DNA from: Acetofilamentum sp.
GTDB taxonomy: Bacteria; Bacteroidota; Bacteroidia; Bacteroidales; DYOH01
NCBI GenBank assembly: GCA_020720625.1
Contig: DYOH01000039.1
Location: 1-32,497 of the forward strand
Reading direction: 5' to 3'
Length of the DNA: 32,497 nt
Shown here: piece by piece, positions 659-32,497 of the stretch
Layout: each line of letters opens with the position of its first letter
Numbering within the stretch: the stretch's first letter is position 1
Made by a program: the position numbers and the translations under genes
Notes under the pieces: generated by a model
Database searches by the model: none
Told to the model about the DNA's origin: nothing
The model's input: the letters and a program-made list of their open reading frames with translations, nothing else

Positions 659-1357
659 ATGAAAACATTATTTTACTTAATGCTATTTTCGGCATTTTAT
701 TTTTTACACGCTTGCGAACCCGCTGAAAGCTTGGTAACGTACAAACCTTGTATAGATGCAAACGGAAACAAATACGATACCGTAAATATTGGAACCCAGG
801 TTTGGATGAAAGAAAACCTGAAAGCTACCCGGTATAACGATGGCACGCCAATACTTGAAATAAAGGAAGCTAGTTTGTGGGCAAGCGCATTATATCCAAG
901 ATTTTGTTGGTTAAATTACGACACAACATATAAACACGAATATGGAGCGTTTTATAACTGGGCAGTGGTGGATAGCAACAGTAATGGGGGTAAAAATGTT
1001 TGCCCTGTTGGCTGGCATGTACCCGATACTGTAGAGTGGAATACCCTGATAAACTTTTTGGGTGGCGTTTATGTAGCTGGTGGTAAAATGAAAATCCCCG
1101 ATGAAAAATATTGGTTAGCACCAAATATTGGTGCTGATAACAGCAGTGGTTTTTCAGCTATTGGCGCAGGTGGAATCCAATATAATGGTTATTATAATTG
1201 GCAGTCATTTCTAACGGCTTATTGGAGCACGCTAAACTATAGAGAACCTTACGGTTTAGCTTTATATTTAAGATACGATTATTCAATCGGATCCTATCAA
1301 GCGCGTTACAAATCAGAGGGATTCTCAATTCGCTGCATAATGGATAAAAAGGAGTAA
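659..1357 (+). CDS. FISUMP-domain lipoprotein
   Basis: A 232-residue exported lipoprotein. The N-terminus is a lipoprotein signal peptide ending in the lipobox LHAC, with Cys19 the predicted lipidated residue. The rest is one FISUMP domain (Fibrobacter succinogenes major paralogous domain). Recognisable family marks are DANGNKYDTVNIGTQVWMKE near residue 33, GAFYNWAVVDS near 99, CPVGWHVPDTVEWN near 118 and the C-terminal GFSIRCI. The domain's biochemical role is not known; such proteins are surface or periplasmic and often multicopy in Bacteroidota. A second, broken family member lies at 7717-8453. The ATG follows an A-rich leader without a clear Shine-Dalgarno, as is usual in this phylum. The gene stands alone in an accessory patch. 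Confidence 0.85.
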   Translation: MKTLFYLMLFSAFYFLHACEPAESLVTYKPCIDANGNKYDTVNIGTQVWMKENLKATRYNDGTPILEIKEASLWASALYPRFCWLNYDTTYKHEYGAFYNWAVVDSNSNGGKNVCPVGWHVPDTVEWNTLINFLGGVYVAGGKMKIPDEKYWLAPNIGADNSSGFSAIGAGGIQYNGYYNWQSFLTAYWSTLNYREPYGLALYLRYDYSIGSYQARYKSEGFSIRCIMDKKE

Positions 1358-1377
1358 CAAAACTAAATCTGTATTTT

Positions 1378-1500
1378 ATGAAAAGAAGTATAAAGAACAT
1401 ACTATTCGCAATATTATTTGCTTATTCGCTAAATCTGTACTCTATTAATACTGAAAATGTGAGTTTTTGTAAAAACGAAAACCTAAATTGGGGCTGCTGA
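1378..1500 (+). pseudogene. Truncated secreted-protein ORF, cut by repeat element
   Basis: Starting at ATG 1378, 20 bases after the FISUMP gene, the frame encodes MKRSIKNILFAILFAYSLNL followed by about 20 more residues. This is a convincing Sec signal peptide with a basic N-terminus and hydrophobic core. The frame then runs into the nested-palindrome element, and its stop (TGA, 1498-1500) lies within the element's left terminal repeat. Beyond the element, the sequence belongs to a different gene ruin (Fic). The 5' end of a secreted-protein gene therefore seems to have been cut off by insertion or by a linked rearrangement. The product was probably co-transcribed with the FISUMP gene. Confidence 0.55.
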
Positions 1501-1831
1501 AAAACTAAAACAGAATGATTTTGAATGAGAATTTCAGAAAATGGTTTTCATCTCAGTGGCTACATAATAAGGTAATAAGGTTTAACCGTGCCTTTTAAAA
1601 TACTGACTACTAAGGTGTAAATGGCAGATAAGGTTTTTGATGCTCTAACGTGTGGGGGTACACCTTAGTAGAAAACAACTGTAGCATTAATTTCTACCTT
1701 ATTACCTTATCCTATAGAAGTTTAAGGTTTTCGCGAGTTCTGCTATAAAAAGCTTGCACCCGAAATTATTATCTATAGAAGTAATATCCTAAGGAACTTA
1801 TTATTAGCGTTATTTCAGCAGCCCCTAATTA
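1486..1831. mobile_element. MITE-like element with nested palindromes, copy 1
   Basis: A non-coding element of about 346 bp, repeated at 32115-32461 in the same orientation with roughly 85-90% identity by eye. It has terminal inverted repeats (GGGGCTGCTGAAA at the left, its complement at the right, 1490 and 1825). Inside are two further perfect inverted repeats arranged concentrically: 15 bp (1567-1581 with 1696-1710) and 13 bp (1607-1619 with 1659-1671). The whole element could fold into one long branched hairpin. The right end is flanked by TA; the left flank is TT, so a TA target duplication is only weakly supported here. No transposase is encoded, so it fits a miniature inverted-repeat transposable element moved in trans. 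Confidence 0.75.
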
Positions 1832-1832
1832 A

Positions 1833-2300
1833 GTTAACGATAATGTAGATATTTCTGTCAGTTATGCAACATTAAAAAGAGTTTTATAAAAGTTAATAAC
1901 AGAAAGTTATCTTGTAACTATTGGACAAGGTAAAGGAACTTAATATAATACTTCCCCAACATTTGCGCTCCAGGCACCAATTGATATTGAAAAGTATTTT
2001 GAGGACTAAATTGAAGATAGAGCTATAAAAGAAACTTTTAATTTTTCAATTATCAACGAAGTTCTTGCAAAGATATAGTGTTTTTACTGAAACTGAATTA
2101 GTGAAACTCAAGCTATTTCATGCAAAATTTCGGAACAAAATTTCTCAACTATCATAAATTGAATAAAATGAAGTTTGAACGATTAGCAATTGAATTAAGC
2201 TGGAAATCTTCGCAGATAGAAGGTAACACATATTCATTTGAACCATAAAGATGCATTGGGTTTCATTATTGAAAACTTTTTAAAAATTGTAAAATTTTAT
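1833..2300 (+). pseudogene. Decayed Fic-family gene
   Basis: Translation across frames gives a recognisable Fic-family N-terminal region. It contains YATLKRVL, LVTIGQGKGT, TFALQAPIDIEKYFED, FNFSIINEVLAKI, LKLFHAKFRNKISQLS, then FERLAIELSWKSSQIEGNTY and, after a small deletion, LNHKDALGFIIENFLK. The frame is broken by at least four in-frame stops and two or more frameshifts. The segment joining the GNTY motif to LNHKDALGFI has been deleted. The catalytic HxFxxGNGR core that should follow is absent. Fic proteins transfer AMP or related groups to target proteins; this copy cannot. Its 5' end abuts the nested-palindrome element, which may have removed the upstream part. Confidence 0.8.
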
Positions 2301-2349
2301 ACTTGCTGTTGGAGGTTCCAAAGATTAGCCACATGGCTTTGTGCGAAAA

Positions 2350-5300
2350 TTATAAATTCGTATATCGTTTTACAATACTGGTGAGTTGGTCTTGGTTTAT
2401 GGGTTTGGTAATGTAGTCACTAAAACCTCCATTTATACATTCTTCGCGTTTAAAAGAGTAGGCCGTTTGCGCAATAATGGGCACTGTTTGGTTGAATTTG
2501 CGGATTTTTGAAGTGGCTTCAAATCCATCCATCACAGGCATTTTTATATCCATTAGGATTATATCAAAGGCTGAATTTTCTGTATACTCGAGCGCTTCTT
2601 TTCCATTTTGCGCATGAATAATTTTAATAGGTAATTCGGAGAGAATTTCGCGAATGTACAGGAAATTATATTCTTCGTCTTCAACTACAAGTACTTTGGC
2701 TATTTCATTGCTTGGTGTAGCGATTTGTTTGTTGGCTACTTTTTGTGTAATTTGTATCGGTAAATCAAAGCTTATTTTGGTGCCTTTTTCTAGTTCCGAC
2801 ACCAGGCTGAGATTTCCATTCATCAGTTTGATAAGACCATAAACGATAGACAAACCTACTCCGGTTCCTCCGTGGTTTTGCATGATTATCTCATCGGCTT
2901 GGGTAAAGCTTTTAAAAATGGTATCTTGCTTGTCGGGCGGAATACCCATGCCGCTATCCTCTACAAAAAATTCGATATGTGTGCCATTTAGAATAAATCC
3001 CAAACGTATATATCCCGCAAAGGTAAACTTTATGGCATTGTCCAAAAGGTTTTTCATTATTTGTCGAAGGCGCATTAAATCGCCATGAAAAACAAAATCT
3101 CTTTCCGGAGGATTACTTACTTGTAATTCCAGGTGCTGCTTGTTGTGTTTTGCTTTTAGTTCTGTGTATTCTTCGCAGAGTTCATTTACCAATCTAAACG
3201 GATTAATATCGCCCATCTGTAGGTTTATTTGGTTGGTTTCCAGATGCGCTATGGTAATCATATTTTCAATTACTTCAAGTAATCTGAGCGTCGATTGATG
3301 TATTATATTTCGATATTCTGTAATTTGACCCGGCGATAAATTTGGTTTTACCAATAGGTTTGAAATGCCCAGAATAGCATTCATTGGGGTTCTTACCTCG
3401 TGCGAAACGTTGCGTAGAAATGCCGATTTTAAGCGGTCGCTTTCTTTGGCTTTTTCAAGTGCGCCTATTAGTTCCTGTTGTGTTTTCCATAAGTCTGTTA
3501 AATCCTGCAAATTTGCCCAAATGCCTGTTACATTATTATCTGTAATTATGGGCACCAAAAAGTATTTCATAAAAACGGTTATGCCCCATTTACTGGTATA
3601 TTGTGCATCGGCAGAAACAATCTCTTTTGATGTTACGCATTTAATAATATTTTCGGAGAAGCCAACATCTTGCAGTGGTTTAAAATGGAGTAAGTTTATT
3701 TTTTTTGTCATTTCGAAGGATGGAGAACCAATTATCTTAAGCACAGCGGCATTGGCTTCTAAAATTTCGCCTTCGGGTGTAAAGAATAAGAAGCCCGAAA
3801 GTGAATTTTCGAACATACTCCGAACCTTGTATTCGTTTATTTCAGCTTTTTCTTTGGCTTCCAATAGCTCGATGCTCATTTTTTTTAAATCGCTGATATT
3901 GGTCTTAATTGCTACAAAATGTTTGATTTGTTGTTGTTTGTTAAATACCGGCGAAATGATGGCCTGTTCCCAATAGCACTCACCATTTTTGCGTTTGTTT
4001 TTAAACTCACCGGTCCATGTCTTGCCCGATTTTACTGTTGGCCATAAATCCGGATAAAAATTTTTGCCGTGGAATTCGGAATTTACAAGATTCACGTTTT
4101 TTCCCAAATATTCTGCTTCCTTGTAGCCGCTAATTTCGCCAAATGCCTGATTAGCATATTCAATATTTCCATTCATATCGGTAATTATTACACTGGCGCT
4201 GGAGTTTTCGATGGCATTTTGCAATATTTGGTTTTTTTCCTCGGCATTTTTTCTTCTGATAATATTCCAGATATTTTGTAGGTAGGTTTTAATATTTCGA
4301 ATTTCATCCGGAATGTAATCACTGCTTTTATTCATAAGCAGAATCAAAGAGTTTGAATATTCACTGTCGAGCACGGGCACTGCAAGCATTTTTTCTATTT
4401 CCCGGTTACTAAAAAATTGGTTTTGACTATTGCTGTTGTCTGCGTAGTTGTTATATATTATGGCATTTCTGGTAAGTAAAGCTTCTATGTAAATGCCTGC
4501 ACTCATTATTGGAAATTTTATAAATGAGCTTTTTAACTGCGCTTCAGCAGATAATTTCGATTTTTTACTCTCCAGTTTTAGCGTTTGTGTAATCTCGTCG
4601 AAATTATACACAAGTATATCGGTACTGCTTGTTAAGTCCATTAAAGCATTTACAGCATAATCTGCAATTTCGTCGTTCTCAAGTTTATCGGCTATTTCAT
4701 AAAGTTTTATCTGATTGTTTTTGAATTTCGTTTCGATTTCTTGCTTACTGATATCGCGTATTGTACCTAGGGCAAGTTCTTCGCCTGCGATACTTATTCT
4801 TTTGCCTATTACTTCTGCTAAAATTACTGATTTATCTTTTCTTACGATTTCTACCTGTATCGGAGTACCTGCTTTTTCTGTAATGCTATCGTTAAAAATA
4901 TTTTCCCGGTTTTGGCTTGCTTTAAGGTTTTTTACATTCATGTTTAATAATTCGTCTTCGCTATAGCCGGTCATTTTACAAAATGCATGATTCACAAAAA
5001 CGTAATTCCCGTTGAGTGTGGCAACTGTAATTCCTTCTGATGATTGGGTACTAAAGGCTCTAAATTTCTGTTCATTCTCTTCTGCGCTGTTTTTTGCTTT
5101 TAGAATCTCTAATTCCTGTAATTTGCGTTCACTGATGTTTTGGGCAAAGAATGATGCGCCAAGAATTTGGTTTTGCGAAACAATGGGATGTACAAATACT
5201 TCAATATATATGGTTTTATGTTTGTTTATCCGAACGGCATCTTCAAAAGAAAAGTGCTCTCCTGCTAATGCTCTGTTGTATCTTGTCATCCATATTTCAC

Positions 5301-31840: not shown

Positions 31841-32114
31841 AAAACTGCTTAACAATCTATCAAAAACTATTATCCTAAATGCTCCTTAGTGGCGAAATCT
31901 TTGTAATTCAGAAATGAAATATTTAGGGCAAATCTGCTATTGTTTTATGTAGGGTCTGCTGAAAAATATATAATTATTATTAAATCAAATATTTGATGCT
32001 TTAATGCAAGGTTTTTAACGCATATTGCTATTTTTCATGCATTGATTCTTCATTTACAACAATAAGCACTTAGAGTTAATAGTGAGCATGTATTTTTTAA
32101 AGAGATATATTTAT
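31841..32114. other. Intergenic DNA with an orphan IS-like end
   Basis: No gene was recognised. At 31950-31966 the sequence TAGGGTCTGCTGAAAAA is identical to the left end of the element at 32115. The ~150 bases after it differ from that element's interior, so this looks like the stranded end of a related insertion sequence. No transposase coding remains. Confidence 0.5.
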
Positions 32115-32461
32115 AATTAGGGTCTGCTGAAAAACTAAAATAGATTGATTCTGAATGTGAATTTCAGAAAATGGTTTTCATCTCAGTGTCTATGTAATAA
32201 GGTAATAAGGTTTAACTATGCCTTTTAAAAGACTGACTACTAAGGTGTAAATAGCAGATAAAGTTATTGATGCCCTTACGTGTGGGGGTACACCTTAGTA
32301 GAAAAAAAATTGTAGCCTTAATTTCTACCTTATTACCTTATATATTTTAGCTAAAGGTTTTCGCAAGTTCTACTTTAAAAAGCTTGCACTCGAAATTATA
32401 ATCTATAGAGGTATAATGCTAAGAAACTTATTATTAGAGCCATTTCAGCAAACCCTAATTA
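32115..32461. mobile_element. MITE-like element with nested palindromes, copy 2
   Basis: A second, same-orientation copy of the element at 1486-1831, about 347 bp including the flanking AATTA. The ends are TAATTAGGGTCTGCTG and the complement of TAATTAGGGTTTGCTG. TA flanks the GGGT termini on both sides, which fits a TA target duplication. The 15-bp arms (32197-32211 with 32327-32341) and 13-bp arms (32237-32249 with 32289-32301) are perfectly complementary and identical to copy 1, while much of the spacer sequence has drifted. No ORF is present. Confidence 0.75.
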
Positions 32462-32497
32462 GCCGTAGCATTTATGCTACGGTAAAATTTGACATCA

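Follow-up and report, generated by a model that had tools for sequence, protein, structure and literature searches.

A nested palindromic repeat of Acetofilamentum sp. as a probable composite of an IS5-family MITE and a REPIN-like core associated with Y1 transposases

The window, that is, the whole stretch of 32,497 nucleotides analysed here, carries a repeat in two copies that is best explained as a composite of two layers, with an IS5-family MITE on the outside and a REPIN-like core associated with Y1 transposases on the inside. We give this reading a probability of about 0.7. The source genome is a 3.8-Mb assembly of 143 contigs, of which the window is contig 41, and among the genes of the window are gcvP and porZ, the latter a gene of type IX secretion. 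Each copy is 336 bp long (1490-1825 and 32120-32455, both on the + strand), and no open reading frame of 90 or more amino acids lies over either of them. In both, a terminal inverted repeat (TIR) encloses a perfect 15-bp pair, which in turn encloses a perfect 13-bp pair. An earlier note, made from the sequence alone, had described two copies with three nested inverted repeats, and both were found where it had placed them; its boundaries also took in the 6-bp target duplications, which lie outside the element proper.

In copy 1, the ends of which are GGGGCTGCTGAAAAA and TATTTCAGCAGCCCC, the arms of the middle palindrome are ATAAGGTAATAAGGT (1567-1581) and ACCTTATTACCTTAT (1696-1710), and those of the inner palindrome are CTACTAAGGTGTA (1607-1619) and TACACCTTAGTAG (1659-1671), all on the + strand. 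The two inner palindromes make up a core of about 146 bp built on TAAGGT and CTACTAAGGT, which occupies 1566-1711 (+) in copy 1 and 32196-32342 (+) in copy 2, where the middle arms are at 32197-32211 and 32327-32341 and the inner arms at 32237-32249 and 32289-32301. The target duplications, assigned to neither strand, are TAAATT (1484-1489) and TAATTA (1826-1831) around copy 1, the left one being imperfect relative to the right, and TAATTA on both sides of copy 2 (32114-32119 and 32456-32461).

The repeat does not occur by chance, since BLAST gave 41 matches in its own genome, seven of them essentially full length and many ending at contig ends. Conservation was determined from 30 alignments, which represent 30 of the 41 matches at as many loci, the query itself and duplicates being left out. 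Across the two inner palindromes, the 58 positions in arms showed 29 mismatches in 801 cells (3.6%), compared with 222 in 1073 cells (20.7%) for the core spacers and 634 in 4147 cells for all positions outside arms and TIRs, core spacers included. When the arm mask was shifted circularly, none of the 307 shifts was as conserved as the true arms. The contrast first noticed between the two window copies, of unchanged arms and diverged spacers, thus extends to the copies of the whole genome, and the genome search proposed by the earlier note returned copies in which the inner arms stay conserved. The joint change of position 10 at both ends of the terminal repeat, which had been taken as a sign of selection on folding, holds for the window copies and is not general; the two ends agree at this position in four of the seven full copies and differ in three. 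Of the two other genomes of the family, only G002 gave a BLAST match, a homologous element at locus L083, and the covariance model described below, applied later, matched the other one (G001) as well. Plasmids and phages searched for the element gave no match.

The outer layer has the termini GGGKCTGCTGAAAAA and a 6-bp target duplication of the form TAnnTA. This duplication is identical on the two sides in five of the seven full copies, has one mismatch in another and two in window copy 1 (TAAATT/TAATTA). When the flanks of copy 2 are joined with a single TAATTA, the result matches, as far as the contig reaches, the uninterrupted L058 copy of MITE-B, a second MITE family that has these ends as well. 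The 17-base end was found in 22 of 295 genomes of the same order, and the full-length insertion sequence (IS) that the earlier note had proposed to look for exists there, in relatives that share these ends and measure 1.64-1.66 kb. One of these (L136/L335) is 1657 bp long with TAAGTA on both sides, and a protein search gave two copies in G256, each of 1644 bp, with TAATTA and TATTTA; at L119 a transposase lies between such ends in a broken element of 1649 bp that has no matching duplication. Among 23 loci checked from the protein search, both ends were present in five of the seven with at least 61% identity, and looser versions in four of the 16 less similar ones. Ends of the GGGKCTGCTGAAAAA type, allowing up to three substitutions, stand on both sides of the IS copies L335, L336, L357, L337 and L338, with 6-bp TAnnTA duplications in the first three and imperfect ones in the last two.

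The parent element belongs to the IS5 family according to the curated profile, as the L136 transposase scores 379 bits against NCBIfam transpos_IS5_1 (NF033578; cut-off 275); the named plasmid relatives, ISAcma17 and ISMae6, have about 42% identity, and all plasmid matches stayed below 60% identity. On account of its ends, the TAnnTA duplications and the full-length IS with the same ends, we regard the outer repeat, which shares the duplication type of these elements and has no transposase coding, as an IS5-family MITE. Its standing as a non-autonomous IS5-family derivative is supported by the anatomy, the target duplications, the empty site and the full-length relatives, and the suggestion that the repeat is a transposition substrate is borne out for this layer. 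In addition, both ISs and nine of 13 MITE rows, some of which are copies of one family, carry the heptamer [AG]TGCAAG at a distance of 66-67 bp from one end. The earlier note had also considered that the copies might be what a deletion left of the ends of a known IS, with the palindromes explained by its interior. The ends are indeed IS ends, but BLAST of the element against the two full-length ISs found only the ends and one 18-base stretch in common, and no such palindromes inside them.

MITE-B itself is about 465 bp long and parallels the focal element, having the same IS5-type ends and central palindromes of its own, CCGTAGCATTTATGCTACGG and GGCTTTAGCC. In the window it extends over 31950-32497 (+), where it is split by copy 2 into 31950-32119 and 32462-32497 and cut by the contig end; uninterrupted copies are present at L058 and L041. 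A further MITE-B copy, within 818-1406 of L030 (G000:C110), is itself interrupted by a third element, the ends of which are GAGTTCAGTCTAAAAAG and TTTTTAGACTAGACTC. MITE-B gave no BLAST match to the fetched Y1 loci, and its end gave none in plasmids.

The core was traced outside this genome with the exact pattern TAAGGTAATAAGGT-N(100-130)-ACCTTATTACCTTA in a single pass over the GTDB genome collection, which yielded 68 loci, 65 of them titled as Bacteroidota groups, two as Ignavibacteria and one as Atribacteria; the viral contigs scanned with the same pattern gave none. On alignment, AATAAGGTAATAAGGTT and CTACTAAGGTT are common to these loci and AATAAGGTT is frequent, all three being accompanied by their inverses.

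For loci L137-L204 and L267-L334, the 200 bp to either side of the core were then scanned with eight TIR sequences that came from these loci themselves; 123 core sites were found and 116 were kept after seven with short flanks were dropped. A matching TIR was present on both sides at 25 of the 116 sites, in seven kinds, and on one side at 23, while 68 had no recognised frame; in control windows 350-550 bp away, both-sided TIRs were found in none of 88 and any TIR in five of 88. The both-sided frames consist of the IS5-type end at four sites, TCAGCGATTTT at eight, TAAC[CG]TGAGTTCG at six, GACTTGTTGTAAATTGA at three, GTAAACAATATTGTCGTAA at two, TGGGGTGACGTAAAT at one after equal flanks were merged, and GCTGTGTTAAAA at one, which is weak. 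The left share of the flanks was 0.39-0.61 in all 25 framed sites, sites of the same family not being independent of each other. Hence the core occupies a central place in MITEs with six kinds of ends other than the IS5 type, one of them weakly supported, and it is a module separate from the outer MITE. The frame kind TAACGTGAGTTCG carries the end of MITE239 of Porphyromonas gingivalis as printed in PMC4596501. In G170, the Y1 gene of which has no internal stop, five copies that are identical or almost identical over 255-261 bp, with ends TGGGGTGACGTAAAT, occupy five sites with five different 9-bp target duplications (judged by eye), indicating that a core-carrying MITE of another transposon moved recently. 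In an earlier scan for inverted repeats, with swapped flanks as control, five of 64 loci exceeded the 99% score of the control, which was contaminated by families shared among loci of the same genome.

A pair of one frame with and without the core was sought in G002 and no clean one was found, the nearest being L129. This locus (605-869) has the frame of the core-bearing L083, but roughly half the core is missing, between the loop and a point just past the edge; we rejected it as an empty frame because it is a half-core deletion. The loss resembles what a palindrome-mediated deletion might leave.

The core also adjoins genes of Y1 transposases of the HUH type (PF01797, NCBIfam transpos_IS200), as seen at L186 (Paludibacter sp. 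221) and L149. The only Y1_Tnp match in the genome of the window, on contig 92, has an internal stop and lies between core palindromes, of which the upstream one is without its outermost left arm. The L186 protein was compared with the 295 genomes of the order, and 30 fetched loci were examined; two further matches of at least 56% identity (a second gene of G153 and a fragment in G242) had no locus and are outside the 30. At least two TAAGGT/ACCTTA hexamers within 300 bp on one side were found at all 17 genes with 56-76% identity to L186, and at none of the 13 related genes with 40-48% identity, three of which had single hexamers. Similarly, tandem arms were present at 12 of the 17 and none of the 13, and hexamers on both sides at only 10 of the 17. 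The 19 core-associated genes form one clade with a support of 100/100; 17 of them had been picked by similarity to L186, without use of the motif.

The association was examined at the genome level with the covariance model (E 1e-4; best ten candidates per genome scored, on drafts). On this basis at least 24 of the 295 genomes were core-positive and 17 carried the Y1 clade, and the two sets overlapped in seven genomes against 1.4 expected (p = 1e-4), or in six without the genome of the window (p = 6e-4), kinship being ignored in both cases. Using the strict pattern, three of eight core genomes were shared (p = 0.008), and two when the genome of the window was left out (p = 0.05), again with kinship ignored. 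Among the best ten candidates per genome in these drafts, 10 of the 17 Y1-clade genomes had no model match. Conversely, 17 of the 24 core-positive genomes were without a clade Y1 gene, and we take this majority to reflect gene loss or carriage by other means. The core is thus a REPIN-like repeat family that goes with a Y1 clade close to subclass 1.2, and we infer that the Y1 enzyme acts on it by cutting. The earlier note could match the element to no repeat it could name; its ends are now tied to an IS5-family element and its inside to repeats associated with Y1 transposases.

It might be supposed instead that the whole 336 bp is one ordinary fold-back IS5-type MITE, with inner arms kept only for the DDE transposase or for cruciform extrusion, and that the link to Y1 genes is incidental. 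The element does move in one piece, with both ends preserved and TAnnTA duplications beside it, its nested palindromes fold well, and the one Y1 gene of its genome has an internal stop. However, the core is absent from the two full-length ISs and from other MITEs with the same ends, it also lies inside MITEs with different ends and duplications, such as the 9-bp duplications of the G170 elements, which already disfavours this explanation, and its hexamers cluster beside every examined Y1 gene of one clade. We consider it unlikely.

Another explanation would make the core an array of sites to which a DNA-binding or nucleoid protein of the host binds, gained by MITEs and Y1 genes for insulation or silencing. 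The nearly invariant TAAGGT repeats and their symmetric arrangement would suit such an array, as would the many core-positive genomes without the clade gene, but the hexamers are associated with just a single clade among the 30 Y1 genes examined, and other clades often have other CTACnAAGAT repeats. This confinement points to the Y1 enzyme rather than to a conserved host protein, and makes the host-protein array distinctly improbable.

The pairing within the core was analysed separately. The second palindrome, which lies outside the search pattern, is present in 58 of the 68 loci, a count that omits 10 loci, several of which have variant, array-like cores. In these 58 its positions TACTAAGGT are almost invariant, and compensated double changes amount to 24 against 7.5 expected from shuffles, 22 of them at the three outermost pairs. 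A third palindrome is present in 38 of the 58 against 0.7 expected from shuffles. In an alignment of 26 sequences under a three-helix model, standard pairs make up 92.9% of the cells, and both sides have changed in 19 cells compared with 7.6 in shuffles; helix 1 is not assessable from the 68 loci, its pairing being fixed by the search pattern. The covariance model built from this alignment (R1), which includes the core of copy 1, matched copy 1 with 96.1 bits (E = 8e-16) and copy 2 with 89.4 bits (E = 1e-14). Folded as single-stranded DNA, the cores did better than dinucleotide shuffles, with z of -3.25 and -4.89.

The covariance analysis that the earlier note had proposed therefore did give an excess of double changes, mostly at the three outermost pairs of helix 2 and with helix 1 preset. 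Inner arms that are invariant as sequence, together with double changes at the outer pairs, suggest sequence-specific recognition of symmetric sites. Judged from the sequences, protein binding to such sites fits the core arms better than a structure kept for pairing only, with some selection on symmetry; of the idea that the folded structure itself is selected, this selection on symmetry is what stands, while the arms are kept as sequence. A structured non-coding RNA or RNA regulatory element (attenuator or sRNA) carried on MITEs, with the hairpin selected as RNA, is very improbable and not supported as an option of the earlier note, since against the standard pairs and the excess of cells changed on both sides stand the preset pairing of helix 1, the nearly invariant inner positions of helix 2, the lack of any Rfam match, and scores nearly equal on the other strand (83.6 bits for copy 1 and 84.3 for copy 2), as a near-symmetric DNA element would give.

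The composite reading, with a Y1-associated core, raises the identity of the clade. Subclass 1.2, as defined by Quentin (2018), has the signature Y---Q--HH, with the HuH motif listed as DH[IV]H, and comprises near kin of IS200 transposases that generally are without typical IS200 end structures; it is entered with 'no' REP-type repeats, low copy number and hosts mostly in Cyanobacteria and Bacteroidetes (PMC6006769). The Y motif of this subclass was found, as Y--NQ--HH, in 14 of 17 clade proteins, three giving no match to the pattern, and the HuH motif was EH.H in 14 of the 17 and DHVH in one, compared with DH.H in the 13 related genes. Because of EH.H instead of the listed DH[IV]H, we call the clade subclass 1.2-like and not a member; unlike the subclass as listed, it carries repeats, the TAAGGT cores. 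Since subclass 1.2 is listed without REP repeats or typical IS200 ends, no substrate had been in view until now, and the clade next to it gains a specific candidate DNA partner.

Neighbouring clades gain candidates with a common tag. CTACnAAGAT motifs are present within 400 bp of nine of the 14 other (non-clade) genes, and CTACnAAGRT, a pattern devised after viewing these loci, occurs 51 times in the 23,993 bp within 400 bp of 31 genes compared with six times in the 40,477 bp beyond 700 bp, being near nine of 17 clade genes and nine of 14 others. As the pattern is post hoc and the Y1 gene of the window's own genome has both CTACTAAGGT and CTACAAAGAT nearby, we regard one repeat family per clade as a lead and not a rule.

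The core resembles several described systems in part. Like the REPINs and REPtrons of TnpA_REP (RAYT) enzymes (PMC6006769, PMC3733652), it consists of dispersed palindromes that flank their own Y1 gene, is of a clade-specific type and contains GTAG/CTAC. It differs in being about 146 bp long with three nested long arms and not a hairpin of 20-40 nt, and in an enzyme nearest to a subclass listed without REPs in PMC6006769. In the canonical REP, GT[AG]G stands 0-2 nt 5′ of a hairpin with a stem of 7-20 nt and a loop of 2-5 nt (PMC6006769). In the left arm of the core CTAC stands before TAAGGT, in the right arm GTAG stands after ACCTTA, and by inspection neither half is a hairpin, so that the canonical GTAG tag is present but does not mark the 5′ foot of a short hairpin. 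That REP dimers can lie within longer palindromes was already on record in 2013 (PMC3733652). TIRtrons (TIRYT) likewise comprise Y1-type genes with long flanking inverted repeats, some self-complementary, in small dispersed families; they were described for RAYT-like proteins, and the TAAGGT core is not among the repeats described in the available part of that source (PMC3733652). PATEs, the MITE-like derivatives of IS200/IS605, are also non-autonomous palindromic derivatives of Y1 elements (PMC4853749), whereas the present palindrome occurs within DDE-type MITEs and next to Y1 genes. On the side of the outer layer, the IS5-family MITEs MITE239 and BrickBuilt of P. gingivalis are likewise short, non-coding and multicopy with IS5-type ends, and MITE frames with unrelated interiors have likewise been described (PMC4596501). 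One frame of the core elsewhere, TAACGTGAGTTCGATATAA, carries the printed MITE239 end and the ISPg3 end that resembles it (PMC4596501). Compared with these MITEs, the present element has a conserved nested-palindrome interior common to several MITEs with different ends, and a 6-bp TAnnTA duplication. In the open-licence literature, no title or abstract was found that describes the combination of a DDE-type MITE with a Y1-linked core.

As to how the composite arose, the evidence supports a spread of the outer layer, with ends GGGTCTGCTGAAAAA and 6-bp TAnnTA duplications, as double-stranded DNA by an IS5-family DDE transposase, and the Y1 enzyme may have recognised the core as a single-stranded fold-back. 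In the most likely history, this enzyme would have placed the core mid-way in pre-existing MITEs, perhaps through a preference for hairpin centres, and the MITEs would then have carried it along by DDE transposition. Neither enzyme looks active in the genome of the window, as no such IS5-type transposase was found in it at E 1e-30 and its only Y1 gene has an internal stop.

That a single palindromic module occupies the middle of several MITE families whose ends differ is relevant to the question of how MITEs acquire their interiors, and also to whether hairpins are targets of single-strand transposases. A wider proposal, which we offer tentatively and hold to be rather doubtful as a whole, is that the core represents a Bacteroidota-wide family of fold-back DNA that would be mobilised by subclass 1.2-like Y1 transposases and inserted preferentially at the hairpin centres of other transposons, with DDE-type MITEs as vehicles and each Y1 clade having its own CTACnAAGRT-tagged family (CTACTAAGGT, CTACAAAGAT, CTACGAAGAT). 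If true, the core would parasitise other parasites and owe its movement to two transposases of different chemistry.

Several loci showed further features. Many contigs of G000 (e.g. 46, 50, 79, 80, 98 and 142) end 55-66 bp inside these repeats, which probably explain part of the fragmentation of the draft; the contigs that end about 55 bp inside the repeat were considered as traces of a longer IS, and this was rejected in favour of assembly breaks. L081 (G000:C35), where the ends lie 2.2 kb apart, was rejected as an autonomous element, being a tandem-repeat insertion without a transposase-sized open reading frame; at about 1200-3130 the focal MITE is split by about 1.9 kb of tandem repeats with a CTACAAAGAT-type motif, bounded by TTGAATTAGGC and GCCTAATTCAA. 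At L264 and L259, Y1 genes of another clade lie amid arrays with CTAC[GT]AAGAT and AGGGCTACGCCCCT-like palindromes, another repeat family, and at L205 (G001, of the same genus as the window) a Y1 gene lies amid many AGCCCTGAAAGGGCGG palindromes, apparently another Y1-linked repeat family.
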